Of a stretch of DNA of 64,000 bases, positions 197 to 52,354 are shown piece after piece. The translations under genes were made by a program, and so were the position numbers. The stretch lies in IMG/VR virus record IMGVR_UViG_3300037297_000249, positions 1 to 64,000 of that record; one strand, written 5' to 3'. The stretch comes from a virus. The notes under the pieces are model-generated. The model had not been told where the DNA came from and searched no databases. It worked only from the letters and a program-made list of their open reading frames with translations. Within the stretch, counting starts at the first letter, position 1, and each line of letters opens with the position of its first letter.

Positions 197-568
197 ATGA
201 TGAGTCCGAAAATTAGTGTAGATAATATTGCTTGGATTGCCCATGAGGTTGAATGTATGTATTGTGTAGTAGTTGGGAAGCCGGTAGGAGCTGCTTGGGA
301 ATATTTGGATAAGAATAATATTAAGAATCTTAAAGAGGGGATTAAGTATATAGCCAAGCACCCGACATTAACTCCGAAGGTTGCACATAGGATGTGGGTA
401 GAGAAGATGAAGAAGGAGGGTTGGAAGTACGGGGAGAAGGCTGATTTGGAGGCGAAGGTTCATCCGGATTTAGCGGATTACGACATGCTTCCTAGTTGGA
501 TACGGATGAGGGACCGGTTAATTAGCGTTACGATTAAGACTTTGTTAGGAATAGGGCTAGATGAGTAA
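197..568 (+). CDS. RyR-domain protein, array member 1
   Basis: A 123-residue single-domain protein. The second half carries the full RyR-repeat signature: a conserved H..W about ten residues before GWKYG, an Asp, a Lys, HP, LADY, LP, then an R-RD basic/acidic pair and the closing helix ending LLGIG. The N-terminal half (ISVDNIAWIAHEVE) is shared with members 2, 3 and 4, defining a subfamily. RBS AAAGGAGG at 187-194 stands 5 bases from a second ATG at 200, which is the better spaced start. In eukaryotic ryanodine receptors this repeat is a small helical module; its ligand in phage proteins is not known to me. The gene's stop overlaps the start of the next gene (TAATG). Confidence 0.82.
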   Translation: MMSPKISVDNIAWIAHEVECMYCVVVGKPVGAAWEYLDKNNIKNLKEGIKYIAKHPTLTPKVAHRMWVEKMKKEGWKYGEKADLEAKVHPDLADYDMLPSWIRMRDRLISVTIKTLLGIGLDE

Positions 569-783
569 TGGTTGACGTAGAGATGGTTGGTTATGAGGAA
601 CCCGAGGATATACCGACGTGTGGTGGTTATTCGACTTGGACGGATTGCGGGTATGAGTTTGATTGTGAGTACGGGCCGCCGTGGAATTGTGAGGAGTGTT
701 TAGTGAATTGGGACATAGGAGGTGTGTATGATCCCAGGTGTCCGGAGGACTATCGGAGGTATGAAGGGGAAGAGAGTGAGTAG
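568..783 (+). CDS. Small Cys-rich acidic protein inside the RyR array
   Basis: A 71-residue protein with six cysteines (C18, C27, C33, C41, C44, C58), including a CEEC pair, and many Asp/Glu/Tyr/Trp. It does not match the RyR pattern and I do not recognise a family. The CxxC pair and spaced cysteines suggest metal binding or disulfides; no signal peptide is present, so zinc binding in the cytoplasm is the likelier reading. Its ATG shares an A with the stop of array member 1 (TAATG), and its stop overlaps a possible GTG of member 2, so it should be translationally coupled to both and made in step with them. Confidence 0.65.
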   Translation: MVDVEMVGYEEPEDIPTCGGYSTWTDCGYEFDCEYGPPWNCEECLVNWDIGGVYDPRCPEDYRRYEGEESE

Positions 784-785
784 TG

Positions 786-1145
786 ATGAATCCTATTATT
801 AGTACCGATGAGATAGCGGTTATAGTTTACGAGGCCACCAGGATTTTTGGTAGTTCCTTTGGGGATGTTGTGTGGCCTAGGGTGGAGGAGGCACCGGAGT
901 GGAGGCTTAAGGGAGTTAAATTTGGGGTGGAGCGTTTCGTGAAGAATCCGGACATTACTTCAAGGGAGGTGCACAGTAATTGGGTGTGGGAGATGGTATT
1001 AGCTGGTTGGAAGTGGGGTAGGGAGTTTGATGTAGTTAAGATGACGCACCCCGATTTAGTTGATTACGACCGGTTACCAATTCAGCAGAAGGTTCCGTAT
1101 AGGTTGACGGAGGTTATAACTAAAACTTTGTTAGGCGCACTATAG
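786..1145 (+). CDS. RyR-domain protein, array member 2
   Basis: About 119 residues, same architecture as member 1: N-terminal ISTDEIAVIVYEATRIF segment, then KNPDITSREVH..W, the GWKWGREFD core, THPDLVDYDRLP and a C-terminal helix ending TLLGAL. The aromatic at the core is Trp instead of Tyr. A GTG at 783 overlapping the previous stop is a possible start, but ATG at 786 follows directly and begins at the conserved MNPIIS. Only a weak purine-rich RBS precedes it, fitting translational coupling to the Cys-rich gene. Function unknown beyond the RyR fold. Confidence 0.8.
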   Translation: MNPIISTDEIAVIVYEATRIFGSSFGDVVWPRVEEAPEWRLKGVKFGVERFVKNPDITSREVHSNWVWEMVLAGWKWGREFDVVKMTHPDLVDYDRLPIQQKVPYRLTEVITKTLLGAL

Positions 1146-1155
1146 TGGAGGAGTG

Positions 1156-1941
1156 ATGGAATATATTATTAGTAAGGATGAGATAGCTCATATTGTTTAT
1201 GAAGCTGATCGTATTTATCGAGAGGCTTTAGGGGAGAGGCCGCGCCGGGCATGGGAAGGTGCACTTGACTGGGAAGTCCAGATAGCTAAGGAAGGAGTTA
1301 ATAATATTATAAGGAACCCGGAGTATAGTTCTGAGGTAGCTCACGATGAGTGGATGGCTTTCATGAAGGAGCGCGGGTGGACGTACGGTATGAAATTGGA
1401 CAGGGAAAGAAAGGAGCATCCAGATATAGTAGAGTATAGAAGGTTGCCTTCGCAGCAGAGGGTACGAGATACGTTAGTTGACGTTTTAGTCAGGACGTTG
1501 TTAGGGAGGGGGACCTGTCTCTCTAGTCGGAGGGTGGTACACTTTAATTTAAATCAGGAGTTAGTAATGAAACCCGTTATTGAGATAGACGAAATCGCAC
1601 ATATTGTTCACGAGGTTAATCGTCTTTTTTGCGAGGCGTTGGGGGATTATTCTCAGCCCAGGTGGGAGAACGCGCAGAACTGGCAGGTTAAGTCGAGTAA
1701 GAGTGGTATAAGTGCTATTATGGCTAATCCGAATCTTACACCCGAGGAGAGTCATAAGAATTGGTTACGGGATAAGGAACGAGACGGTTGGAAGTACGGG
1801 GTGGAGAAGGATGTAGAGAAGAAAGAGCATCCGTGTATGGTGGAGTACGAGAAGTTGCCGGAGGAGCAAAGGGTGAAGGACAAGTTGTTTACGTCCATCG
1901 TAAAGGCGTTGCTGTGTTTTGAGAGTGCTGATGTAGGGTAA
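1156..1941 (+). CDS. Double RyR-domain protein, array members 3 and 4 fused
   Basis: One open frame of about 261 residues holding two complete copies of the 125-residue unit seen alone in members 1 and 2. Core motifs are GWTYGMKLD...EHP and GWKYGVEKD...EHP. The joint is telling: the first unit ends TLLGRG, as the single-domain proteins end, and the next ~20 residues read like translated spacer DNA, including a retained AGGAG (1556-1560) six bases before ATG 1567, exactly where the second unit begins. An in-frame TAG would appear after the first unit with a one-base shift. RBS GGAGG at 1147-1151. Either a recent fusion by frameshift or a sequence error; the second unit can probably still start independently. 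Confidence 0.75.
   Translation: MEYIISKDEIAHIVYEADRIYREALGERPRRAWEGALDWEVQIAKEGVNNIIRNPEYSSEVAHDEWMAFMKERGWTYGMKLDRERKEHPDIVEYRRLPSQQRVRDTLVDVLVRTLLGRGTCLSSRRVVHFNLNQELVMKPVIEIDEIAHIVHEVNRLFCEALGDYSQPRWENAQNWQVKSSKSGISAIMANPNLTPEESHKNWLRDKERDGWKYGVEKDVEKKEHPCMVEYEKLPEEQRVKDKLFTSIVKALLCFESADVG
1567..1941 (+). CDS. Internal-start product: RyR array member 4 alone
   Basis: The same frame as the fused gene, beginning at ATG 1567 with AGGAG at 1556-1560. It would give a 124-residue protein (MKPVIEIDEIAHIVHEVNRLF start) matching the length and domain layout of the free-standing members. Listed separately because the RBS and start are intact; whether both the fusion and the short form are made cannot be told from sequence. 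Confidence 0.5.
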   Translation: MKPVIEIDEIAHIVHEVNRLFCEALGDYSQPRWENAQNWQVKSSKSGISAIMANPNLTPEESHKNWLRDKERDGWKYGVEKDVEKKEHPCMVEYEKLPEEQRVKDKLFTSIVKALLCFESADVG

Positions 1942-2025
1942 GGGTCGCAAGGTTATCAAGTCTTCGTAATTCATTTACAGTAAGTAGGATGTCTGCGTTC
2001 TAGGATTAGAACAAAGGAGTTATTT

Positions 2026-2268
2026 ATGGAAAAGCTTGTGAGCAATCGTGAGGATATAGAACGTATTGTTGAGGAAGCCTATGATAGCTGGGTACAAGAG
2101 ATGAAGGATAGTGGGTGGAAGTATAGTAAAGTAGTAGACCTCGACAAGAAGGAGAGTCCGTATATTGTTCCGTATAAAGATTTGTCTTTAAGGGCACAAA
2201 CTGAATATCGAGTGTTTGCCCATATTCTTAATGATGTGATTTGGAGACGGAAGAAGGACGGGGCTTAG
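2026..2268 (+). CDS. Short RyR-domain protein, array member 5
   Basis: Only 80 residues. After MEKLVSNREDIERIVEEAYD it goes straight to W..EMKDSGWKYS, D.DKKESP, IVPYKDL, and the closing helix. Roughly 40-45 residues between the first helix and the conserved Trp, present in members 1-4, are missing, and the core Gly of GWKYG is Ser. It looks like an internal deletion derivative. RBS AAAGGAG (2013-2019) is directly preceded by a 6-bp hairpin (GTTCTA / TAGAAC, 1997-2012). Its stop meets the stop of the opposing gene tail to tail with a 4-base overlap. Confidence 0.7.
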   Translation: MEKLVSNREDIERIVEEAYDSWVQEMKDSGWKYSKVVDLDKKESPYIVPYKDLSLRAQTEYRVFAHILNDVIWRRKKDGA

Positions 2269-3182
2269 AGGCAGGTCGGCAGGAGTTGGGCGATATTAAT
2301 CAGGGTATCGACGCGTTCGGCGAGGTCCGTACGGTTGATAAGTATAGCGTCTTGTTTTCGTTCTTCGAGTTCGTTGAGGATTTGTTCACGGCCTAGGCCG
2401 GCGATGAGTGCGACGCCTCGGAATACGAGGGCTTGGTCGTTCACTTCGGGGATAGCCTGTACGTAGTCGTTCGCGAGTTTATCCATAAGCGGGTAGATGA
2501 CGTTTTGCGAGCAGTTCATCACTTCGGGGAGGATGAGGTTCACGGAGTAGCAGGTACCGCAGGACTCGACGGGGAGCATAACGGTTGAAGTTTCTTCATT
2601 TTTTCCGTGGCAGCAGCGAGCCCAGATTCGGTAGCAGCCCGGGGGGACGTCGAGTTCTACGTGGTTGATGTATTGACCTGCGGGCGGATAGATTTTGATG
2701 CGATAGGCGCCGTGGTAGTATCTGGTAGAGATTTCGTATCCGGAGCCGGGGGTGGGGGTGGAGAATTGGATGTCGGAGTCGGTATCGATATTGATGAATT
2801 GAGACGGTCCTTTATCGAGGGTTGTGAGGACGATTTGGTCGTTATCGAAGTCGAGGTTCACATTGACGTTGGTGAAGTAGGCTTTGAGGGCGTTGAAGAC
2901 TTCGGCTTTGGTGGTGCAGCTGGTTGTGATGTTAAGGGTCAGGGAGGAGGTGTTGGTGGTGATGGTGATGTATCGACCGGCCTGGTCGGGCAGCGGGTAG
3001 TTTGACAAGTCGACGGCGGAGGCCGGGGTAGCGTATCGAGATTTCAGCTGTTCGAGCAGGGGGAAGACGGAGTAGAGCGGGGTGCCGTTGCAATACTGGA
3101 CGACGAGGTCGAGAAGCCAGCAGTTGGTGAGGGGCACGCAGTTGTAGTCACGAAGCCAAACGTTCAGGCGAGAAGTTCCCAT
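2265..3182 (-). CDS. Hypothetical 305-residue protein, only minus-strand gene
   Basis: Complete frame with AAGGAGAT 9-10 bases upstream of ATG on the minus strand. I do not recognise the family. The first 60 residues are hydrophobic/aromatic and Cys-containing; the middle is beta-rich and Thr/Asp-rich (TITTNTSSLTLNITTS; DLDFDNDQIVLTTLD); around residues 165-210 there is a G.Y.I..PPAGQY...PPGCYRIWARCCHG stretch resembling strands of carboxypeptidase-regulatory-type beta sandwiches, then a C-terminal helical part. Ten or more cysteines. No signal peptide. Its orientation, its more GC-rich codons than the G/T-rich neighbours and its tail-to-tail junction with array member 5 suggest separate acquisition. 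Role unknown. Confidence 0.72.
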   Translation of the reverse strand: MGTSRLNVWLRDYNCVPLTNCWLLDLVVQYCNGTPLYSVFPLLEQLKSRYATPASAVDLSNYPLPDQAGRYITITTNTSSLTLNITTSCTTKAEVFNALKAYFTNVNVNLDFDNDQIVLTTLDKGPSQFINIDTDSDIQFSTPTPGSGYEISTRYYHGAYRIKIYPPAGQYINHVELDVPPGCYRIWARCCHGKNEETSTVMLPVESCGTCYSVNLILPEVMNCSQNVIYPLMDKLANDYVQAIPEVNDQALVFRGVALIAGLGREQILNELEERKQDAILINRTDLAERVDTLINIAQLLPTCL

Positions 3183-3441
3183 AGTGTATCTCCTTGGTTA
3201 TGGGTTGGTGATGGGGCATGATAGGATTTATTTTTCTATCGTGCAAATGTATTTGAGGGAGTTTTCGGAAGTTATCCGTGTATTTGGGACTTATGGGTTT
3301 TGCAGGTTTATTTTATTGTGTATTTTATTGTGTATTTTTAAGGAGTTATGGAAGTTAATAATATTTGATAAAAATTTATGTGCGTGTTACTATAATTATA
3401 TTCGATTAATTCGGATAACAACCAAGGCAAGGAGGGAACCA
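3183..3441 (+). promoter_or_regulatory. Divergent intergenic region
   Basis: About 260 bases between the minus-strand gene and the next plus-strand gene. An open frame runs through it from 3184 but its translation is AT-driven and hydrophobic without RBS support, so it is read as non-coding. It is AT-rich from about 3300 on, with a repeated TTTATTGTGTA element (around 3310-3336), and contains the promoter listed at 3365-3396. Confidence 0.5.
3365..3396 (+). promoter_or_regulatory. Candidate sigma70-type promoter
   Basis: TTGATA (3365-3370) followed after 17 bases by TACTAT (3388-3393), overlapping TATAAT (3391-3396, 20-base spacing). Either pairing is plausible. It lies 46 bases upstream of ATG 3442 and would drive the 72-residue gene and, past the palindrome, the second half of the RyR array. 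Confidence 0.5.
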
Positions 3442-3660
3442 ATGCACTATTGTTGCGGGGATTATGTCATTATCCCCAGTTGTGATGACAAGTTTATCGT
3501 AGTTGCTCGGTCTAGGTGGCACGATTATCTGGAGGCAGATATTTTGTTGTCCGCAGACAGTTTACGAAAAGCCGTAAAGTGGGTTGACCGTGCGGTTAGG
3601 ATTGACCTAGGTATTACTCGCCGAGGCTTCGTAAATGGATATGAAGTCTGTAGGCTCTAG
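3442..3660 (+). CDS. Hypothetical 72-residue protein
   Basis: Start chosen at ATG 3442 because GGAGGG (3431-3436) is correctly spaced; the frame is open further upstream but through promoter-like DNA. The protein begins MHYCCGDYVIIPSCDD and continues with SRWHDYLEADILLSADSLRKAVKWVDRA. A vicinal CC and a third Cys near the N-terminus could bind metal; the rest looks like a small alpha/beta fold. No family recognised. It precedes the palindrome and the ~300-residue RyR paralogs. Confidence 0.6.
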   Translation: MHYCCGDYVIIPSCDDKFIVVARSRWHDYLEADILLSADSLRKAVKWVDRAVRIDLGITRRGFVNGYEVCRL

Positions 3661-3681
3661 CTAGAAGGGATCATCGAATCT

Positions 3682-3707
3682 TTAAAGGATAATTGATTAT
3701 CCTTTAA
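3682..3707. repeat. Perfect 26-bp palindrome (12-bp arms)
   Basis: Arms TTAAAGGATAAT and ATTATCCTTTAA separated by TG. It is AT-rich and has no following T-run, so it is a poor terminator; symmetry and position (10-40 bases before the RBS of the first ~300-residue RyR protein) fit an operator for a dimeric regulator. It could also be an mRNA hairpin affecting translation. Confidence 0.6.
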
Positions 3708-3733
3708 TTAACACAGGAAGGAGGTTTGTAACC

Positions 3734-4654
3734 ATGACTACAAACCGAGTTGAAGAAGAAGTAGTGGAGTTCGAAATAACTCCTAGGCAGTTAGAAGAAT
3801 ATAGCTCCAGGTATGAGAGAATCATGATAGATCTTATATTTAATAAGAAGATCATGGATAGCTTGGGGCGAATGCTTATTGAGCGGGTGGAGGGGGTGCA
3901 GGCTTATAATCAGTATATGGAGTTCACTGGCAGGTTGGATTTTGTTTTACTTATGATGGAGGTCATAGGCAAAACCGTTGAATGGAAGTCGTTAGAAATT
4001 TTAGAGCTTCCGAGTGAGGAGGCGGTTAAGAATGCTATGACTGTTACTGCCGAGATATTGAGTTGCCCGGGCAAATCTGTTCGAAGCATTAGTAGTAGCT
4101 TGTGGAAAAGCTTCGATGAATTATCCCGTCGGGAGCAGGCACGGTATTTGCTTTTAGATCTAATGATTAAGGAAGTGTGTAAGCTTCCATATAGAGTAAA
4201 GATAGAGGTGGAGCCAAAAGTAACGGAGGATATGCGTTTATTATTCTATCGACTATTACAGATACAGAATACGCCGAGGGATCGCTCAATTAAGGATGCC
4301 CCCGGAGTTCCGGTAGTAGCGCGTATTCATACTCTTATATGGTTGATGGCCAAGCTTTTACGGGTGGTGTCCAGTTCGAGGCCAAAGCCATTGACCCGGG
4401 ATTTTGTGGTGGGATATTCAACGGAGGTTTTGCGTATTTTGGAAAACCCTCTTAGGGGGCAAGAGGAGAGGTATCTTAGGAGAGTTAAAGAACTAACTAA
4501 AGATGGGTGGACTTTAGGCAATAGAATTGATGTAGAGAGTAAAACAACTCCCTGGTTAATACCTTTTGAGGAGGCCCCGGTTGCCGCACTGCAACGAGAC
4601 CGGGTAATGTGGGCGATCGTTTTATTGATTATTGGGTATTACGAGTGTTTTTAG
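3734..4654 (+). CDS. Long RyR-domain protein A, array member 6
   Basis: A 306-residue protein with RBS GGAAGGAGG (3716-3724). Layout: N-terminal EFEITPRQLEEYSSRYERI segment; a helical domain (about residues 40-150) that reads as a degenerate RyR unit, keeping the ILSCPGKSVRSI helix and the terminal R.RYLLLDLMIKE helix but lacking the GWxYG/HP core; a linker; then a complete RyR unit at the C-terminus (about 240-306) with GWTLGNRIDVESKTTP, LIPFEEAP and a final helix. Members 7 and 8 share the whole layout and the LEYTxxQLxxYR start, so these three are one subfamily of tandem RyR proteins. Confidence 0.78.
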   Translation: MTTNRVEEEVVEFEITPRQLEEYSSRYERIMIDLIFNKKIMDSLGRMLIERVEGVQAYNQYMEFTGRLDFVLLMMEVIGKTVEWKSLEILELPSEEAVKNAMTVTAEILSCPGKSVRSISSSLWKSFDELSRREQARYLLLDLMIKEVCKLPYRVKIEVEPKVTEDMRLLFYRLLQIQNTPRDRSIKDAPGVPVVARIHTLIWLMAKLLRVVSSSRPKPLTRDFVVGYSTEVLRILENPLRGQEERYLRRVKELTKDGWTLGNRIDVESKTTPWLIPFEEAPVAALQRDRVMWAIVLLIIGYYECF

Positions 4655-4694
4655 AAGGTCGAGAAAGTTTATAAAGAAAGGAAGGTTCGTAGCC

Positions 4695-5615
4695 ATGAAT
4701 GCGACCGTAAATGAAGAAGAGGTATTGGGAGTTGAGTATACAAAGGAACAATTGGATGAGTATCGGAGGGCTTCAGAGGGGATTATTCTTAATGTGTTGG
4801 ACGACCAGGGGTTTATAACAGGGATATGGAAGAAATTGGCGTGTTCGCCTATTGGGGGTGCTGCTTGTGACCAATTTATGTGCATGATTAATTGCCCGGA
4901 TTTGATTATGTTATTGTTGAGGGTCATCGAAAAGACGGTGGAGGGGGAAGACTTGGGGCCGTTGAAGCCGGTGGGTGACGAAAGGGTAAGGTACACCCTA
5001 GAGATGCTTTCCGAAATTCTGAGTAATCCGGAGAAATCAGTTCGGGAGTTGGATAGTCCGGAGTTGGGGGCCTTCGCTGTGTGGCCAGAGAAGATTCGGG
5101 TGAAGTATTTATTTTTTGAGTTGCTTATTAAGCAACGGTTTAATTTACCTCGCAAGTCGGTAGACCGGGAGTCCCTTGTGTTGAGCCGGAGGGCTTGCGA
5201 TTTGATGGACCGCATGAAGGGGGTTACGATCATGCAGCAGTTAGGCTCATTACAAGGAGTTCTTGGGTTAGACGTTCTATTGAGAATGCACACCATAATG
5301 GGCCTTATGGCTAAGATATTTAATGCTAATCCTAATTATATGTACACTCCTTTGTTACCCAGGTTTGCGGTTGGTTACGCGATAGACGTTCTCCAGGTTC
5401 TATCAAATCTCAGGCTTTCTGTAGAGCAGAGGCATAACCGTAGAGCTGAGGGGCTATTGGGTGCTGGGTGGAGGTCAGGGGAAGTTCTTGATATAGACAA
5501 CAAGGTTACGCACATCGTCAAGCCATTCTCTGAGATGTCGCGGAAGACGCAGCAGCGAGAGGTATTAATGGAGGCTGTGGTGTTTATCTTGGCGGAGCTC
5601 GGGTTGTATATTTAA
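4695..5615 (+). CDS. Long RyR-domain protein B, array member 7
   Basis: A 306-residue paralog of the preceding gene. Start at ATG 4695 is supported by AAAGAAAGGAAGG just upstream and by alignment of GVEYTKEQLDEYRR with its neighbours; the frame is open earlier but overlaps the previous gene. Degenerate first RyR unit (LSEILSNPEKSVREL ... WPEKIRVKYLFFELLIK) and complete second unit (GWRSGEVLDIDNKVTH, IVKPFSEMS). In the second unit the core Tyr is Ser and the HP is H-I, so ligand contacts made by those residues, if any, may be lost. Confidence 0.77.
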   Translation: MNATVNEEEVLGVEYTKEQLDEYRRASEGIILNVLDDQGFITGIWKKLACSPIGGAACDQFMCMINCPDLIMLLLRVIEKTVEGEDLGPLKPVGDERVRYTLEMLSEILSNPEKSVRELDSPELGAFAVWPEKIRVKYLFFELLIKQRFNLPRKSVDRESLVLSRRACDLMDRMKGVTIMQQLGSLQGVLGLDVLLRMHTIMGLMAKIFNANPNYMYTPLLPRFAVGYAIDVLQVLSNLRLSVEQRHNRRAEGLLGAGWRSGEVLDIDNKVTHIVKPFSEMSRKTQQREVLMEAVVFILAELGLYI

Positions 5616-5652
5616 GTCGATAGAATAGTTAACAATATAGAAGGAGGGAATT

Positions 5653-6564
5653 ATGGACGACAAGAAAGTCGTGGGGTTGGAGTACACGCCAGCTCAGCTT
5701 GCAGCATATAGGTTGCATGTTAGGGCGCTGGAAGTAGACACTGTGTCTGACAGTAAATTTATGGGTGAGGTTTGGGGTCCGCTTCTAGCACTTCAGGGGC
5801 CAGAGGCGGTGGAAAGGTTTATTAAGTTTATTGGGGCTACGGAGGATATATTTTTAGTATTGGATATTATTGGGAGGGAAGTTGGTCCGAATGGTTTGGA
5901 CAAGGTAAGGAATGTAAGTCAGGAGATTATACGCAATGGGCTTATGGCAATCTCTGGGATAGTGCGTAGTCCAGAGAAGCTAATTAGGGACATTTGCGAA
6001 GATATGGTGCCGTCGTTTTCTTGTTGGCCATATAAGGCCAAGGTTAGATCTTTGTTTCTTGGTTTATTGGTTAAAGAAATGTTTGGTTTCCCGTACACGT
6101 TCAAGACCGTTAGGACTACGGAAAAGAATGATATAATAAATAAGTTAGGTTCTGTTGTAGTTGGGGCTTTATTGGTACCAGATAACCTATGTGTTGAGAG
6201 AGTTCCGGGCGTGGATTATTTATTGAGAGTGCATACTCTTTTAGGGCTGTTTGCAAAAATGCTTAATGGTAATAATAAGTATATAAGCACGCCCTTAACG
6301 GTGCCTTGTGCTAAGGGGTATGCTCTTAACATGTTGCGTTTGTTGAAAGACCTCAACAGGACTGATGAGGAGTTACGTACCGAGAACATGGCAGAGTTGG
6401 TGGCCTCTGGGTGGACCTACGGTGAGGAGTTTGACCATGAAAATAAGATTGGTCCTACGATAGTTCCATATGACAGATTGCCAGAGACGATTAAAGCCAG
6501 GGATAGGCTGTTTCGGGCTATAACTTTAACATTTGTGGGCTTGGGAGATCACATACAGAGTTAG
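5653..6564 (+). CDS. Long RyR-domain protein C, array member 8
   Basis: 303 residues, RBS AGAAGGAGG. Third copy of the tandem layout: GLEYTPAQLAAYR N-terminus, degenerate unit (ISGIVRSPEKLIRDI ... WPYKAKVRSLFLGLLVKEMF), and a well-preserved C-terminal RyR unit with GWTYGEEFDHENKIGP, TIVPYDRLP, I.ARDRLF. Of the three it keeps the canonical core best. Separated by about 37 bases from member 7 and 35 from the next gene, so one transcript is likely. Confidence 0.78.
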   Translation: MDDKKVVGLEYTPAQLAAYRLHVRALEVDTVSDSKFMGEVWGPLLALQGPEAVERFIKFIGATEDIFLVLDIIGREVGPNGLDKVRNVSQEIIRNGLMAISGIVRSPEKLIRDICEDMVPSFSCWPYKAKVRSLFLGLLVKEMFGFPYTFKTVRTTEKNDIINKLGSVVVGALLVPDNLCVERVPGVDYLLRVHTLLGLFAKMLNGNNKYISTPLTVPCAKGYALNMLRLLKDLNRTDEELRTENMAELVASGWTYGEEFDHENKIGPTIVPYDRLPETIKARDRLFRAITLTFVGLGDHIQS

Positions 6565-6598
6565 TCTGTAGAATTTACAAAAAGAAAGGAAGGAAGTC

Positions 6599-7015
6599 AT
6601 GGGTAAGCCTAAGGCTATGAGTGATACCATGCTCATGGGGATACGTGAGTTGGTTATTGTTTGCAAGAATACGCTGGACGGGGAAGACTACATCTCTAGG
6701 TGGGAGAGATATTCAGAAGAAGATTTTGTTAAGTTGTTGCACGCGGAGTATTTGTTGGAAGATGGGGTACTTGATATGGCTCGAGTTCATGCGGATTGGG
6801 TGAATGAGCAGCTGGCCGATGGGTGGTTTTTAGGAGATACATTTGATGATAAATTAAAAACTGACCCCAGTTTGGTTGAATATGAAAAGTTGTCAAAAAC
6901 CGCTTTGGACTTGGACAAGGCGTTTTCCGGAATGGTGTCGGATTATCTTACAATGAAGGGGATAGAAAGAAGGGAAGAAAATGGAGCATTTAACAAGGGG
7001 TCTTGTAAACAGTAA
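6599..7015 (+). CDS. RyR-domain protein, array member 9
   Basis: 138 residues; RBS AAAGGAAGGAAG. N-terminal helix (MGIRELVIVCKNTL), then HADW..EQLADGWFLGDTFDDKLKTDP, LVEYEKLS, and a closing helix. The core aromatic is Phe-Leu rather than Tyr. The last ~12 codons overlap the start of the next gene by 35 bases, and the tail residues (REENGAFNKGSCKQ) look like a read-through extension without domain content. Confidence 0.75.
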   Translation: MGKPKAMSDTMLMGIRELVIVCKNTLDGEDYISRWERYSEEDFVKLLHAEYLLEDGVLDMARVHADWVNEQLADGWFLGDTFDDKLKTDPSLVEYEKLSKTALDLDKAFSGMVSDYLTMKGIERREENGAFNKGSCKQ

Positions 7016-7478
7016 TGGTTCTTCTGTGTTCAAGGGGTTGACGGCTTTGCTTAAGGGCAAGGCCTATACACCGTATTTGATGGGTAGGTTTAGTACCCTT
7101 GAAGAGGATGAAGAAAAGCTGGCGCAGTTCACGTATGTTATTTCAAAGCTGGATAAGGTCAGGTTGATTTTGGAATTATTAAGACTCACTATGGATGAGA
7201 AGCCGATAGGTGAGTTCAGTTATATCGGACAAGAAGAGCTTATTAATACCATGAGTTTCTTAGTGGACATGATTTTGTGTCCTGAGGCTTCAATAGAGGA
7301 GTTGTATAACAAGTTTGTATTTGGCATGAAGGATTTCGGGTGGAGCTTGGGGGATGAATTGGATATAGAAAATAAAATTCATCCGGGTTTAATTTTGTTT
7401 AAAGACCTTCCGTATTCTGTGAGGGCGAGTTATTTGACCTTCGAAGCGATAGTCAGAATCTTGTTGGAGATGAAATGA
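6981..7478 (+). CDS. RyR-domain protein, array member 10
   Basis: 165 residues starting in the 3' end of member 9 (35-base overlap) behind GAAGGGAAGAAA. The first ~95 residues are helical (KLAQFTYVISKLDKVRLILELLRL...) and the C-terminal part carries FVFGMKDFGWSLGDELDIENKIHP, ILFKDLPYSVRASYLTFEAIVRILLEMK. Position of the HP and closing helix match the RyR unit closely; the usual Trp 10 residues before GW is replaced. Coupled by ATGA to the next gene. Confidence 0.74.
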   Translation: MEHLTRGLVNSNGSSVFKGLTALLKGKAYTPYLMGRFSTLEEDEEKLAQFTYVISKLDKVRLILELLRLTMDEKPIGEFSYIGQEELINTMSFLVDMILCPEASIEELYNKFVFGMKDFGWSLGDELDIENKIHPGLILFKDLPYSVRASYLTFEAIVRILLEMK

Positions 7479-8041
7479 AGGATAAGCGAAATAACGAATG
7501 GGCCCCGTATACCCTACTAAGGGGCAAGGGAGCTAAGTTCAGGTTATTAAGCAGTGATCTTCCGGCTGAGGAGGTGGAGAAGGTTAAAAAGCTTATGGAA
7601 ATGGTTATGGAGGACAACGGGATTGCCGAGGGTTCGGATGAATATAATATTATTATGGGCCGATGTATACATCAGGAAAGGGTGGTTTCAAAGATTTTCA
7701 TGATATTGAGGTTGTTTGAAAGTCTTATTATGGATGACGAAGAGACTATGTATACGGAGCTGACCCCGGAGAGGTATGCGATATATACCAGCAATGTAGC
7801 TGATATAGTTGCTCACCCCGAAGAGGGAGTTAGAGATAGGCATGAAAGATATCGGCGGAAAATGTTAGATATGGGCTGGAAGCTCGGGGTCAAGTCAGAT
7901 GTGAAGAATAAAGTCAGTGCCCTTTTAGTCCCATATGAGTCTTTGGATAAAAAGTTACGCAATTTTAATCTGTTTTTTGAGATGATAGTTAGATTGGTAT
8001 TTAAGATGAAAATATATGAGGGTATTTATGAAGAGCAATGA
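7475..8041 (+). CDS. RyR-domain protein, array member 11
   Basis: 188 residues. ATG overlaps the previous stop (ATGA), indicating coupled translation. After a charged N-terminal region and a helical segment similar to member 10, residues ~120-185 form the RyR unit: HPEEGVRDRHERY, GWKLGVKSDVKNKVSA, LVPYESLD, closing helix. HP is replaced by S-A. With members 9 and 10 it forms a middle, more divergent branch of the array. Confidence 0.72.
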   Translation: MKDKRNNEWAPYTLLRGKGAKFRLLSSDLPAEEVEKVKKLMEMVMEDNGIAEGSDEYNIIMGRCIHQERVVSKIFMILRLFESLIMDDEETMYTELTPERYAIYTSNVADIVAHPEEGVRDRHERYRRKMLDMGWKLGVKSDVKNKVSALLVPYESLDKKLRNFNLFFEMIVRLVFKMKIYEGIYEEQ

Positions 8042-8423
8042 AAGTACGGAGATTCGCAAGGTTAGGCTTGAGGAATTCGCGGGGGTTGTATCGGATATAA
8101 TGCAAAGGGCCGGTTGGCTGATGACCGGAAATGACGTCCTGCCGTATGGCGCTGCACACAGCCCAGAAGTTTATGAGGCCTACACAAGTCTCGTAAAAGA
8201 ATTTATTAGGGACCCCTCGGTAACTTTGAGGGGCATGTACGAGGCGTCTCGAAAGGATAAGATTGATGAAGGATGGGTTTATGGAGAAGAATTTAATGAA
8301 GCCAAAAAAACCAGTCCGCAAATGTTGCCTTATGATGAGTTAGACCCGTTCGTTAAGTCTATGGATAAGATACTAGAAACAGTGTTGAAGTCTGTAGCAG
8401 TTATGGTCAAGAAAGGGGAATAG
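8028..8423 (+). CDS. RyR-domain protein, array member 12
   Basis: About 131 residues. ATG 8028 is preferred over ATG 8016 because GAGGG (8018-8022) is well spaced; both overlap the end of member 11. N-terminal helices (EEFAGVVSDIMQRAGWLMTGN), then RDPSVTLRGMYE, and GWVYGEEFNEAKKTSP, MLPYDELDPFVKSMDKI. The core Asp is Asn, shared with member 13. Members 12-14 share an N-terminal helix with WLM/WIL-G-N, forming a third subfamily. Confidence 0.77.
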   Translation: MKSNESTEIRKVRLEEFAGVVSDIMQRAGWLMTGNDVLPYGAAHSPEVYEAYTSLVKEFIRDPSVTLRGMYEASRKDKIDEGWVYGEEFNEAKKTSPQMLPYDELDPFVKSMDKILETVLKSVAVMVKKGE

Positions 8424-8427
8424 GAAT

Positions 8428-8838
8428 ATGGAAAAGGAGTTTTCATCTAAGGTGATTGATGAATTAAATGTAACAAATGCTAGGGGTCTTTTCTTAGCTC
8501 ATGTTTTTCGGGAGTTGATGTCAAAGGTGAGACTTCTAGTACATGGGGAGGAGATTGAGAGACATGAGCCAGGGTCAGAAGCTGATTTAAAGTCTTTAAT
8601 CGGTTATGTTGAGTTAATTAAAATTGTTGCGAAAACACCGAATCAATCTATGAAGGAGGTACATGAAGAATGGTTTGAAAAGAAGGTTAAAGAGGGATGG
8701 GTCTATGGTGAGAGGCATAACGAAGAGAAGAAGACGAGCCCAAGAATTTTGCCGTACGATCAGGCAGTAGGTAACATAAGGTCTATAGATAAAATATTTG
8801 AGTTGTCTGTAAGGGCATTGCTGTATAAAGGAGAATAG
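8428..8838 (+). CDS. RyR-domain protein, array member 13
   Basis: 136 residues, directly after member 12 with an AAAGGGGAATAGGA leader. RyR unit: KTPNQSMKEVHEEWFEKKVKEGWVYG, NEEKKTSP, ILPYDQA, and IRSIDKIFELSVRALL. Closest to member 12 in core sequence (GWVYGE..N...KKTSP), which suggests a recent duplication followed by divergence of the N-terminal half. Confidence 0.78.
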   Translation: MEKEFSSKVIDELNVTNARGLFLAHVFRELMSKVRLLVHGEEIERHEPGSEADLKSLIGYVELIKIVAKTPNQSMKEVHEEWFEKKVKEGWVYGERHNEEKKTSPRILPYDQAVGNIRSIDKIFELSVRALLYKGE

Positions 8839-8839
8839 A

Positions 8840-9274
8840 ATGATAGATCGACAAGCCGTTGTGATGACAGATGCAACTAGTTTAAAGGTGCTAAGAATAA
8901 TTCATGAGGTTATGCACAAGTTTGAATGGATTCTTATGGGGAATCCCGACTCGTTAGTTTGCGAGCCTGATGAAGATGACTTTATTTCATATTTGAATAT
9001 TATGGTGAGATTTGACCAGGACCCTACGTATTCTATGAGAAAGCGCCATGAGGAGTGGCTTAAATTGAGGGTTGACGAGGGATGGAGGTATGGGGAGGAA
9101 GAAGATGAGGCGAATATGGTTGATCCCTGCATACTTCCGTACGATGAGATTCCATACGTAATACGGGCTATGGATGAGCTTTTTGAGACCTTGATAAAAG
9201 CAATATATGCGTCGGGTAAAATTTCAGTGGTTCACCATAGTAGTGTTGATAAAGATACCCGTACATTGCATTAG
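8840..9274 (+). CDS. RyR-domain protein, array member 14
   Basis: 144 residues, one base after the previous stop, RBS AAAGGAGAA. LRIIHEVMHKFEWILMGN N-terminus, then DPTYSMRKRHEEWLKLRVDEGWRYGEEEDEANMVDP, ILPYDEIPYVIRAMDELF and a closing helix, with a ~20-residue hydrophilic tail. The usual K before HP is M. Last RyR gene of the array. Confidence 0.77.
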   Translation: MIDRQAVVMTDATSLKVLRIIHEVMHKFEWILMGNPDSLVCEPDEDDFISYLNIMVRFDQDPTYSMRKRHEEWLKLRVDEGWRYGEEEDEANMVDPCILPYDEIPYVIRAMDELFETLIKAIYASGKISVVHHSSVDKDTRTLH

Positions 9275-9343
9275 GTTATAGGTTGTGCGCGCCTAGGCGG
9301 TTGTGCTAAGTCGCACGGATATGTTTTGTTTGGAGGCAGAATT

Positions 9344-9769
9344 ATGATATATAAGCCAGATTTAAAAGCCATGCAAAGTTTGATTGTAGCTTCATGGGAT
9401 ATATCTGAATGTAAGTTGGGCAAGGATAGAGTGTATGTTTATAAGATATTGAAGGTACTTTTGGATTATGATTTAGTTAAGATAACTAGGTTATATTTAA
9501 AATACGGTGTAACCTATACAAGAGAATTGCATGCGTGGCTTTTTGACATAGTACTATCTACGGTTTCAAAGTTCTGTCTTGAGAATGCTAATTATGTTTG
9601 GTTTTTAGTTACAGATATCTTGCTTGAAATTCTTCAGGGTGTTCATAGGGATATTCAGATTAGGCTGGGGCATGTTCCCTATGATAGTTGTTTGACTTCT
9701 ATGGTTAGAACAATTAGGGATGCTGTGGCTTGTATTGACTATTCTAGGTGTTATCTTCTTGCCGATTGA
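9344..9769 (+). CDS. Hypothetical helical protein
   Basis: 141 residues from ATG 9344 (RBS GGAGG, 9332-9336, 7-8 bases away). It is rich in Leu, Ile, Tyr and Val with few charged runs and has helix-like periodicity, but no RyR core (no GWxYG or HP). No family recognised. It follows the array after ~70 bases with a short CGCCTAGGCG palindrome, so it may be the last gene of the accessory operon. Confidence 0.55.
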   Translation: MIYKPDLKAMQSLIVASWDISECKLGKDRVYVYKILKVLLDYDLVKITRLYLKYGVTYTRELHAWLFDIVLSTVSKFCLENANYVWFLVTDILLEILQGVHRDIQIRLGHVPYDSCLTSMVRTIRDAVACIDYSRCYLLAD

Positions 9770-12911: not shown

Positions 12912-12937
12912 CCCTAGTGGGGAGATTCCCCCTAGGG
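12912..12937. repeat. Strong hairpin before the lipoprotein gene
   Basis: CCCTAG and GGGGA on the left pair with TCCCC and CTAGGG on the right around a GAT loop, 11 bp with one bulged T. It abuts the RBS AAAGGAGGGG. No U-run follows; it may block read-through or modulate translation of the lipoprotein. Confidence 0.65.
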
Positions 12938-12949
12938 AAAGGAGGGGTT

Positions 12950-14107
12950 ATGAAACTTTATTTTGTGATGATGATGATGGTGTTATGTGCGTGTTCCGAG
13001 GATATGTCGGATATTGCCGATGGGGAGGATGGAGGTGATATGTCTTCGACTGCCGATGGGGATACGGATACGGATACGGATACGGATACGGATACGGATA
13101 CGGATACCGATACCGATGGGGATACCGATGGGGACACGGACACGGACACCGATACCGACACCGACACCGATGGGGATACGGATACCGATACCGATGGGGA
13201 TACCGATGGGGATACGGACACGGACACCGATGGGGATACCGATGCAGACTTCGATCCAGGCACAGATGCCGATATTGATGGGGATACGGATACGGATATC
13301 GATACCGATACCGATACCGATACCGATACCGATACCGATGGGGATACTGATACAGACACGGATACAGACACGGATACAGACACGGATACAGACACAGACA
13401 CTGACACAGATACCGACGCCGACGCCGACGCCGACGCCGATGGGGATATTCCGGTAGATGGCTGGATAGAGGGGGAAACGGTATGCAATGAGAATATCCT
13501 ATCTGTATGCACATCTTCCGGTTCGGACTGTCGGGCGGTCTCCGTAATGGAATGCCCTCGTATGTGTGTAGCTGGAGCATGTGTTGAATGCGGCGAGTAT
13601 TCCGACTGCGAAAACCCGGGAAGGGAGGTGTGTGAGGATGGATATTGCAAAACAGCGGATGGGTGGGCGGAGATTACGCTTGAGCCTACTGTTTTAGAGA
13701 TAGAGCCTATTGAGCTTATTTTTCGTGGCGGAGCAGTCTTTGATTCAGAGGAATCAAAGGTTGTAATACAGATGGAGTCGATGAACCGGGAGAAATATAC
13801 CTTTGAGTTGGGCGTCGATACAATTTATAGGTCTTCCGAGATAAACGCCGCGGGTCTACTTATGCTCAATGGGACACCTGACCCGGATTCTCGTGGGAGT
13901 TTTTTTGATTTCAAAATTGAAGATGCGGAGATTACTAGCCTAAGCTATATGTATCCAACAGAAGAATTTCACGGAAATATACCTATCGCGGAAGGAGATA
14001 TGAGGCCAGGCGGAGAAATTAGTGGGGCAATAAGCGTAAGTACCTGCCCTACGTATCCCAAGTGCTTCAATTTAAAGGGGAGGTTCTATACAAAGATTCA
14101 TCTCTAG
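12950..14107 (+). CDS. Secreted lipoprotein with Asp-Thr repeat and Cys-rich module
   Basis: 385 residues from ATG 12950 (RBS AAAGGAGGGG). MKLYFVMMMMVLCAC is a short signal peptide; L-C-A-C15 can serve as lipobox. Residues ~38-165 are almost pure D-T with D-G breaks (DTDTDGDTD), an acidic spacer also resembling calcium-binding DxDxDG loops. Next is a Cys-rich module (C..NILSVC..SGSDC....ECPRMCVAGACVECGEYSDC, about residues 178-230), then a ~150-residue beta-rich domain ending in a C-x5-C pair. This order is typical of surface lipoproteins of Myxococcota/Bradymonadota-like bacteria. In a phage it is best explained as a host-derived moron, perhaps altering the infected cell surface. Confidence 0.75.
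   Translation: MKLYFVMMMMVLCACSEDMSDIADGEDGGDMSSTADGDTDTDTDTDTDTDTDTDTDGDTDGDTDTDTDTDTDTDGDTDTDTDGDTDGDTDTDTDGDTDADFDPGTDADIDGDTDTDIDTDTDTDTDTDTDGDTDTDTDTDTDTDTDTDTDTDTDTDADADADADGDIPVDGWIEGETVCNENILSVCTSSGSDCRAVSVMECPRMCVAGACVECGEYSDCENPGREVCEDGYCKTADGWAEITLEPTVLEIEPIELIFRGGAVFDSEESKVVIQMESMNREKYTFELGVDTIYRSSEINAAGLLMLNGTPDPDSRGSFFDFKIEDAEITSLSYMYPTEEFHGNIPIAEGDMRPGGEISGAISVSTCPTYPKCFNLKGRFYTKIHL
13061..13446 (+). repeat. GA(T/C)AC(N) hexamer repeat tract
   Basis: About 385 bases of GATACG/GATACC/GACACG/GACACC/GATGGG hexamers encoding Asp-Thr and Asp-Gly. Several sub-blocks are near-identical, so slippage in steps of six is expected; third-base variation shows the tract is not freshly expanded throughout. 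Confidence 0.9.
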
Positions 14108-36778: not shown

Positions 36779-38545
36779 ATGCCTACAATAACACTGCTTT
36801 CAGGTAATGTGGCACACATCAATTTGGAGTCCCGTGATTTTGAAAGTTTTAGGAACGATATAGTTGGTGAAGGGGGTTTAGCTGATTTATATCTGCCCAA
36901 CTGGACGGATAGGTCTCCCCTAGACCTTGGGGTAGCGTTAACAGAAGTGATGGCATTTTTTGCGGATAACTTGTCTTACTATCAAGATAGGTGTGCAAAT
37001 GAGGCATTACCCTTAACTTGCATAGAGAGACGTTCGGTAATTGAGCATTGTCGATGGATAGGGTATGAGCTTCAGCCGATTCAGGGGGCTTCTGTTGATT
37101 TGACTATTGTCACCAATGGAAGTGGCACGATGCCGGCAGGAACTAAGATACAGGTAGATACTTCTGATGGGTCAAAGCAGGCAACCTTTGAGTTGTATGA
37201 AGATTTTGTTTCTACTGGGGCAGGAACGTATATTGCACAGCTTGCGGTTCACGGGGAGTCCCGGGAGGATACCCCTCAGTCGAGTTCCGGTGGAGCAGGT
37301 CAGCAGTTTACCTTGCAGGCGGCGCCGATGGCGTTAGGGCCGGACGGTAGCCCGAGTCTTGAAGTATGGATTGAAGAGGGTGGACCAGCAGAGATATGGA
37401 CGCTAGTTGGGAATTTTATCGAGTCTTCGGCTACCGATAAAGTCTACCGTATTTATACGGATGAAAACGATATTACAACGGTAGAGTTTGGCGATGGTGT
37501 GAAGGGGAAAATCCCGGATGCTGGAGTAGGAAATATTGTCTTCAAGTATCGCGTTGGTGGGGGTGTTGAGGGAAATCAGGTAGGTCCGAATAAGCTCACA
37601 AGGTTTCCGGCACAGCATACTTTTGTGGATTCCGTAACGAACCCATTAAGGCCCTCCGGAGGGCAAGAAAAGGAGTCAGTAGAAACAGCAAAGGTTAATG
37701 CTCCGGCGAGTTTAATCTCGATGGAGAGAGCTGTAAGGCATGATGATTTTGCTGTTCAGGCTATGAAGGTTTCAGGGGTCGCTTCTGCAAGTGCCAGCAG
37801 GGATTCTCGAAGCCCTTTGATTGAGATTGTAACGCTTGCGGCTTATGGGGAGAATCCGGTTCCTACAGGTACTTGGAATAAGTGGACACAAACAGGTAGC
37901 GGACTGCTCGGTCAGGTAGGAGAGCATTTACTGACGTTGTGTACTGTCCCGATTATTCTTGATATTAGGCCATGCCGTCCGATTTATGCAAATGTGGCTT
38001 TCGAGGTGTTCTTCATACGTACGATACATGTTGAAGACGGGCTGGCCGCAGTTCGGAGTACTATTAGGGATTATTTTTCTTCGGAAAGTCGGGAGATAGG
38101 TGTGCTGTGCCCCGTATCGGGTCTAATCGCACGGATAGAGCAGACATATGGGGTTGATTATCTCAATACTCTGAGGTTTCAAAGAACACCCCTAGAGAGA
38201 AGGCTGTCTGGACTCAATTCGGACATAACTTTTCAGATGATTAAAGTTGGACCGGAGACCTTACAGGATAGGCATACTATAACCTTTATAACTCCGAGTA
38301 CTTTTGAAGTGTATTCGGAGCAGTATGGGCAGCAGATGGGGGTTGGTTCGTTAGATTCGACTTACACTACAGATGACGGAGGTTTTTCTTTTAAAATCTC
38401 AAGCGGATCATATCCACCAATGGTTAAAGAAAAGTGGGAAATAGTAACAGGGGCTTATGTGGGTAACATAGATCTGGATTATGATGAAGTCTGTGTGCTA
38501 TCCGAGGATGAGGAAATACCCATAACACCGAGAGTTGCTGATTAA
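36779..38545 (+). CDS. Baseplate wedge protein (gpJ / gp6-like)
   Basis: 588 residues, RBS TTAGGAGG. N-terminal DLYLPNWTDRSPLDLGVALTEVMAFFADNLSYYQDRCANEALPLTC is the classical baseplate J start; the middle contains GDGVKGKIPDAGVGNIVFKYRVGGG, and the C-terminal half the second conserved domain (VEDGLAAVRSTIRDYFSSESREIG). Forms the wedge ring around the hub and triggers contraction. Confidence 0.9.
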   Translation: MPTITLLSGNVAHINLESRDFESFRNDIVGEGGLADLYLPNWTDRSPLDLGVALTEVMAFFADNLSYYQDRCANEALPLTCIERRSVIEHCRWIGYELQPIQGASVDLTIVTNGSGTMPAGTKIQVDTSDGSKQATFELYEDFVSTGAGTYIAQLAVHGESREDTPQSSSGGAGQQFTLQAAPMALGPDGSPSLEVWIEEGGPAEIWTLVGNFIESSATDKVYRIYTDENDITTVEFGDGVKGKIPDAGVGNIVFKYRVGGGVEGNQVGPNKLTRFPAQHTFVDSVTNPLRPSGGQEKESVETAKVNAPASLISMERAVRHDDFAVQAMKVSGVASASASRDSRSPLIEIVTLAAYGENPVPTGTWNKWTQTGSGLLGQVGEHLLTLCTVPIILDIRPCRPIYANVAFEVFFIRTIHVEDGLAAVRSTIRDYFSSESREIGVLCPVSGLIARIEQTYGVDYLNTLRFQRTPLERRLSGLNSDITFQMIKVGPETLQDRHTITFITPSTFEVYSEQYGQQMGVGSLDSTYTTDDGGFSFKISSGSYPPMVKEKWEIVTGAYVGNIDLDYDEVCVLSEDEEIPITPRVAD

Positions 38546-51868: not shown

Positions 51869-52258
51869 ATGAGTGTATTAAAAGTTGGTTACAATGTGTT
51901 TGCAGGGGCTTCGCAGGCAGGGACAAACTCCGGAACTCCCGGGGTGGTTCAGGCAGAGGTCAATCAAAGCAAAGCCTATTTCATGAAGATTCAAGAGCTG
52001 ACAGCCAATGAGTACTGGAATAACACCACGAAAGCGTTCCAGGTCGGGGATCCGGCACAGGCGGATGAAATTCAAATTCAGGGGTCCTGCCCCTATTCGG
52101 GGTCTCCGAACACCATCCGGCGACTTTCCGACCGTATTCCCTACGAAGCGCTTGCGGGGATTGCAGCCGCGGGCTGCACCATCACCGTCTATGCCGATGG
52201 GGATACCCCTGCGGTAGATGGTGTGTCGATTACGCTTGCATACAAGCCGGATGCATAG
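51869..52258 (+). CDS. Hypothetical structural protein, last gene of the tail operon
   Basis: 129 residues, RBS GTAGGAGGAG. Beta-rich, GC-richer codons (AGASQAGTNSGTPGVVQAEVNQSKAYFMKIQEL; CTITVYADGDTPAVDGVSITLAYKPDA). Ahead of the strong terminator, so it is the last product of the structural operon and probably highly expressed. Confidence 0.6.
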   Translation: MSVLKVGYNVFAGASQAGTNSGTPGVVQAEVNQSKAYFMKIQELTANEYWNNTTKAFQVGDPAQADEIQIQGSCPYSGSPNTIRRLSDRIPYEALAGIAAAGCTITVYADGDTPAVDGVSITLAYKPDA

Positions 52259-52283
52259 TATAAAGAGTCACCTCTAAGCCATG

Positions 52284-52331
52284 GCCCTCTTGTGGTTCTC
52301 GCTAACACCCCACAAGAGGGCATCTTTTTTT
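52284..52331 (+). terminator. Strong intrinsic (rho-independent) terminator
   Basis: GCCCTCTTGTGG (52284-52295), 14-base loop, CCACAAGAGGGC (52310-52321), a perfect 12-bp GC-rich stem, then ATC and seven Ts (52325-52331). Marks the end of the structural transcript. Confidence 0.95.
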
Positions 52332-52354
52332 CAGCTAAAAATTCAGGAGGAGTC

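Follow-up and report, generated by a model that had tools for sequence, protein, structure and literature searches.

An array of RyR domains in a phage genome

The IMG/VR virus record IMGVR_UViG_3300037297_000249, 110,050 bases long, begins with an array of genes for RyR-domain (PF02026) proteins: 13 plus-strand open reading frames (ORFs), R01 to R13, with 14 RyR cores at 197–9274 (Table 1) of the analysed window, that is, bases 1–64,000 of the record. Among its genes are those for a terminase, portal, tail sheath, tape measure and baseplate, besides a polymerase, helicase, RecA and ligase of its own, a content that identifies it as a contractile-tailed phage. A close relative of 109,495 bases, IMGVR_UViG_3300034989_000047 (hereafter G001), has an exact 127-base terminal repeat, which marks it as a complete circular assembly. 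As the match to the end of the record joins directly in G001 to the match to window base 14, the record is close to complete, and the contig start does not truncate the array.

A six-frame search of the 110-kb record with PF02026 matched 12 places, all at 377–9217; E was below 0.001 for 12 of the 14 cores, and ten passed the curated cut-off of 27.4 bits. Divergence puts R05 and R09 beyond the reach of Pfam (E 0.14 and 0.098, respectively); they were recognised through PHROGs common to other members (Table 1) and through BLASTP matches to neighbouring members. A profile built from the array found no further RyR domain in the remaining 100 kb of the record (best outside match E 0.9). The matches cannot be due to chance, given the E-values, the conservation in a second genome and a ratio of nonsynonymous to synonymous change (dN/dS) below 1 in every shared gene.

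The PF02026 array proposed in a preliminary description of the window, made from its letters, is thus real, with every match in the record located inside it. The claim of 14 intact cores in 13 frames holds as a count; R04 is not intact, however, and three degenerate units had been missed. These lie in the N-terminal halves of the ~300-residue proteins R05–R07 and bring the array to 17 units. They resemble RyR in profile–profile comparison (probability 95%, E 2.7e-8) and lack the ~24 residues that carry the ligand positions. The AlphaFold2 model of R06 (pLDDT 87.7, pTM 0.87) has a helix layout that agrees with a degenerate RyR unit in the N-terminal half (helices 68–82, 95–110 and 132–149), followed in the C-terminal half by helices 192–208, 222–237, 243–256 and 283–299 and short strands. 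Its top Foldseek matches are bacterial, animal and phage RyR proteins, aligned chiefly to the C-terminal unit, and Foldseek returned no known structure matching the whole chain. The gene probably starts at ATG 4695 rather than at TTG 4632, where the listed ORF opens.

The array copies are 10–42% identical to one another. The three subfamilies of the preliminary description can be recognised as R01–R03 (canonical-like), R05–R07 and R11–R13, alongside the diverged singles R04, R08, R09 and R10. RyR genes cover 79% of 197–9274, which is interrupted by two small non-RyR ORFs and one minus-strand gene; in two blocks, R01–R03 and R05–R13, the genes overlap or lie at most 40 bases apart, much as had been described. 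R03, whose single chain holds two units (R03a and R03b), looks like a fusion of two genes by stop loss: its linker (residues 121–141), predicted to be disordered in the structure model, contains an internal ATG (1567) as well as a stretch that resembles a ribosome site.

Table 1. Genes and features of the RyR array (window positions). Pockets are given as the residues at positions 75, 78, 100 and 117, in this order.
Feature	Position	Strand	Description	Evidence and remarks
R01	197..568	+	One RyR domain, pocket HWHD	Pfam E 3.3e-10; dN/dS 0.66, highest in array
R02	783..1145	+	One RyR domain, pocket HWHY (D117 lost)	Pfam E 1.6e-8
R03	1153..1941	+	Two RyR domains in one chain, both pockets HWHD	Pfam E 1.4e-22
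R04	2026..2268	+	80 residues, RyR without alpha1–alpha2 region, pocket YWSY	Pfam E 2.9e-7
Inverted repeat	3684..3705		Perfect, AAAGGATAAT-TG-ATTATCCTTT	Upstream of R05; kept in G001
R05	3734..4654	+	Degenerate N-terminal RyR unit and C-terminal RyR, pocket YRTD	PHROG_5154 E 5.7e-6
R06	4695..5615	+	Degenerate N-terminal unit and C-terminal RyR, pocket HRTE	Profile, AlphaFold2, Foldseek
R07	5653..6564	+	Degenerate N-terminal unit and C-terminal RyR, pocket RNGD	Pfam E 8.4e-6
R08	6599..7015	+	One RyR domain, pocket HWDD	Pfam E 4.3e-7
R09	6981..7478	+	One diverged RyR domain, pocket YFHY	PHROG_5154 E 1.2e-6; 35-base overlap with R08
R10	7475..8041	+	N-terminal extension and RyR domain, pocket HYSN	Pfam E 7e-5
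R11	8016..8423	+	One RyR domain, pocket YSSD	Pfam E 2.6e-7
R12	8428..8838	+	One RyR domain, pocket HWSD	PHROG_5154 E 7.9e-13; six-frame PF02026 37.1 bits
R13	8840..9274	+	One RyR domain, pocket HWDD; last gene of array	PHROG_5154 E 4.7e-13; PDB RyR matches

Selection on the array genes

Between the window and G001, median dN is 0.066 in the 12 shared array genes and 0.0044 in 53 other genes (p 2e-6), so that the proteins of the array change about 15-fold faster than those of other window genes. Median dN/dS is likewise raised, at 0.20 against 0.06 (p 3e-6), but stays below 1 in every shared array gene (0.10–0.66, single values being rough owing to the overlapping frames R08/R09 and R10/R11 and to raised dS in part of the array), and the frames are intact in both genomes. 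The array genes are therefore constrained rather than decaying, yet fast-changing. The most diverged of them is R07, only 56% identical to its counterpart in G001; its high dS (1.16) suggests that the allele was replaced by recombination.

The ligand pocket

A preprint of May 2026 reported that RyDEP, an RyR protein of a mycobacteriophage, hydrolyses 2'cADPR and 3'cADPR, the cyclic ADP-ribose signals of Thoeris defence (PMC13232231). Six of eight other phage RyR proteins bound these signals and none of the eight cleaved them, and the two homologs characterised further rescued phages from Thoeris. RyDEP, a homodimer built on helices alpha1 and alpha4, has a catalytic dyad of H75 and D117, with W78 bracing the adenine and H100 coordinating the phosphates (PMC13232231). 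These positions could be transferred to the array by exact spacing (in R01, H100 follows H75 by 25 residues and D117 by 42) and through the match of R03b to PDB chain 35tm_A, which we infer to be RyDEP.

All four residues are kept in three of the 14 cores – R01, R03a and R03b – and the full set is lacking in the other eleven. Among 117 other phage homologs, by comparison, H75, W78 and H100 occur in all 117 and D117 in 113, and the states in the array differ significantly (Fisher p 0.002 to 3e-7). Many of these homologs were found with a DNA motif that includes H100. This residue was therefore compared only with the other set, for which some search peptides also contain it; for H75, W78 and D117, which the motif does not select for, the comparison was made with the motif set. 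The catalytic dyad H75–D117 is present in R01, R03a, R03b, R08, R12 and R13; as none of the eight homologs in the preprint cleaved the signals, sequence by itself does not decide whether these cores would do so.

Apart from R07, whose pocket is RNGD in the window and HRSD in G001, all shared states are identical in the two genomes: none of 48 pocket cells has changed, where 5.7 changes would be expected (P 0.002), and none of 36 in the remodelled members taken separately (P 0.015). The remodelled pockets are thus held by selection, which bears on two alternatives. That the array consists mostly of decaying duplicates around one working gene might be read from the truncated and polymorphic R04 and from the loss of the ligand segment in the N-terminal units of R05–R07; the dN/dS range, the intact frames and the conserved pocket states largely refute pure decay, and we find this account barely credible. 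The remodelled members might instead reuse the helical RyR scaffold to bind and block host defence proteins, leaving the pocket unused for nucleotides. Fast protein change is typical of protein–protein conflict, and the GW..G scaffold is kept in the eleven cores that have lost pocket residues; against this, conservation of the remodelled positions between the genomes suggests that they matter, and the literature searched offers no precedent for RyR proteins acting as protein inhibitors, making the idea unlikely on balance.

A different role for the remodelled and pocketless members would be to pair with canonical ones in hetero-oligomers, tuning affinity or catalysis. RyDEP is itself homodimeric (PMC13232231), and R03 and R05–R07 are natural two-unit chains; the two-unit models, however, do not superpose on the whole of Repeat12 of the ryanodine receptor (root-mean-square deviation 13–16 Å), and such pairing strikes us as quite unlikely.

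Relatives and copy number

G001 holds the whole array except R04, in whose place some 250 bases are missing, and a fragment, G002, holds R05–R13. Queries with terminase and polymerase retrieved only near-identical genomes, and a query with R07 found no relative among viral contigs. Wider relatives were found through a head-module protein, probably the major capsid protein, at 49–78% identity: none of the 22 records carries an RyR domain, an absence that is firm only in the three of 97–104 kb, as many of the others are fragments and ends may be missing even in these three. With no RyR domain in the wider relatives and R04 lacking in the nearest one, the array is accessory and lineage-specific. 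This variation in copy number leads us to reject a virion or housekeeping component of constant copy number and, together with the fast protein change, bears out the view of the array as a large, rapidly diversifying family in an accessory region.

Elsewhere, the domain is typically single. A query of an annotated phage collection with R03 matched 276 places in 274 records. Searches by protein or by DNA motif (the latter giving 80 loci) yielded 123 other virus records with RyR domains, of which 121 have one PF02026 match and two have two, with the reservation that many contigs are fragmentary and that Pfam can miss diverged copies, as it does in the array. In one of the two double-match records the second match scores weakly and is truncated where the contig stops. 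The other, the unrelated record IMGVR_UViG_3300010965_000005 (G063), has two full matches of equal score on opposite strands (38239–38388 and 52195–52344), perhaps an inverted duplication or an assembly effect.

The tandem arrangement invites comparison with dosage: many copies could simply supply more of a single sequestering activity, on the model of the tifA amplification of T4, and amplification of counter-defence genes is known (PMC9391042; PMC13096335). Near-identical repeats would then be predicted, but the copies are 10–42% identical and differ in their pockets, so that we regard a dosage effect as very unlikely. Less plausible again is a metabolic or regulatory function in which the RyR units serve the phage itself as sensors of ATP, ADP-ribose or metabolites derived from NAD. 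Adenine nucleotides are ligands of Repeat12 (PMC13232231), and the best Foldseek matches of R03 are Repeat12 structures, with 6uhh and 9l90 among its PDB matches; accessory distribution and rapid divergence are nevertheless atypical of core metabolism, and the proposal seems highly improbable.

Interpretation

At the level of sequence, five things are established: the units are homologous, their genes stand in tight co-directional blocks, the proteins change fast but under purifying selection, the array is accessory, and its pockets divide into canonical and remodelled ones. The best explanation, in which we place belief and doubt in equal measure, is a lineage-specific expansion of a phage RyDEP-type RyR gene, kept as a counter-defence island in which canonical members would sponge 2'/3'cADPR and remodelled ones would take other signals. 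R01 and R03, with three canonical pockets between them, would bind the 2'cADPR/3'cADPR that TIR proteins make in Thoeris-type defence, serving as sponges and perhaps as hydrolases; judging from the biochemistry of homologs and the identity of the residues, it is probable that R01 or R03 binds a signal of the cADPR type. The eleven remodelled pockets, altered and yet conserved, may hold other nucleotide signals or variants not taken by the canonical pocket, and R05–R07 would be built-in pairs – one pocketless RyR unit and one remodelled pocket – replacing the homodimer. Sponging, already suggested in the preliminary description, has its precedent in single phage RyR proteins (PMC13232231) and would extend to the array proteins by analogy. 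More doubtful, though conceivable, is a combinatorial repertoire, a panel in which every pocket would be tuned to its own nucleotide immune signal (2'cADPR, 3'cADPR and others, perhaps undescribed); were it true, the pocket sequences of the array would reveal which signals its hosts use.

Several observations weigh against the counter-defence island. Two of the eight phage homologs bound neither signal, and cleavage was seen with RyDEP only (PMC13232231). Loss of pocket residues could equal loss of nucleotide binding. The record contains no match to NAPRTase (PF04095) or Pribosyltran_N (PF13793) – families that we take to cover Namat and Adps – and hence no NARP1-type partner; with no NAD-salvage partner found, coupling to NAD+ synthesis as in phage DyoEdafos is not supported here. 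Finally, when placed in a tree together with the 117 homologs, the 14 cores fall on one side of a branch, in tentative agreement with one acquisition followed by duplication, but this single origin is weakly supported (85/60, long branches), and the members may have been acquired in several events.

The array matters because phage RyR proteins were tied to the binding or destruction of immune signals only in 2026, from single-copy genes with nearly invariant pockets. With 17 units in one genome, three of them canonical and the rest changed at key residues, a change of ligand within the fold becomes directly testable, and one can ask whether phages keep panels of signal sponges. Should the changed pockets bind new molecules, they would serve as probes for unknown bacterial immune signals.

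Neighbouring genes and other features

The inverted repeat upstream of R05 (Table 1) may be an operator; promoter and terminator scans gave no more hits than in shuffled sequence. The minus-strand gene inside the array (2265–3182; 305 residues), without a clear family match, evolves slowly, unlike its neighbours, being 98% conserved in G001 (dN/dS 0.13). The listed ORF at 3184–3660 opens with GTG 3184; ATG 3442, however, has a strong ribosome-binding site ahead of it, and a gene of about 72 codons may start there.

A second paralog array (L011:8201–10749, at ~103.2–105.7 kb of the record) lies, once the record ends are joined, a few kb ahead of the RyR array and has nine copies, one partial, of 67–89-residue proteins, against three in G001; copy number thus turns over fast beside the RyR array. 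Pfam and PHROGs gave no informative match for these proteins. The arrays are flanked by a third paralog family, of weak similarity (L011:10901–11446 and 12955–13488, E 6e-9 between them), with window 9326–9769 perhaps a further member (E only 0.05). Tandem proteins of 346 and 338 residues at L011:4161–6214, 67% identical, have signal-peptide-like starts and no Pfam or PHROG match. Homologs of Radical SAM, GTP cyclohydrolase I and QueC at L009:17252–19904 suggest 7-deazaguanine DNA modification, which would be a second counter-defence layer. Window 12917–14107 encodes a lipoprotein-like protein with a long Asp-Thr repeat whose length differs in G001; in style it resembles Myxococcota-type lipoproteins, a possible lead to the host.

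Comparison with known systems

The RyR unit has already been described; what appears to be new is its arrangement in an array, together with the fused, half-pocketless chains and the remodelling of the pockets. None of the three was described in the literature searched, where phage RyR genes appear singly, which accords with the earlier statement that no system with this arrangement was known. The closest known counterparts are RyDEP (gp78 of mycobacteriophage DyoEdafos) and its homologs H1–H8 (PMC13232231), members of the same family with which R01, R03a and R03b share the four ligand residues at the same spacing. RyDEP, however, is one gene in a NARP1 operon, whereas the array has 13 genes and 17 units, mostly with changed pockets, and a NARP1-type enzyme was not found. 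Repeat12 (R12) of the animal ryanodine receptor has two RyR units per chain, as have R03 and R05–R07, each unit of which fits it while the whole-chain arrangement superposes poorly; unlike Repeat12, the array proteins are free-standing, and in R05–R07 one unit is without the ligand segment. To the anti-Thoeris sponges Tad1 and Tad2, an unrelated family, the proposed likeness would be the sequestering of cADPR-type signals; the Tad2-like domain (PF11195) had no match in the record, and Tad1 was not searched for. Segmental amplification in T4-like phages (tifA, PMC9391042; SegB, PMC13096335) likewise multiplies a counter-defence gene in tandem, but those amplifications are recent and their copies near-identical, whereas the RyR copies, only 10–42% identical and under constraint, represent an older, diversified expansion.

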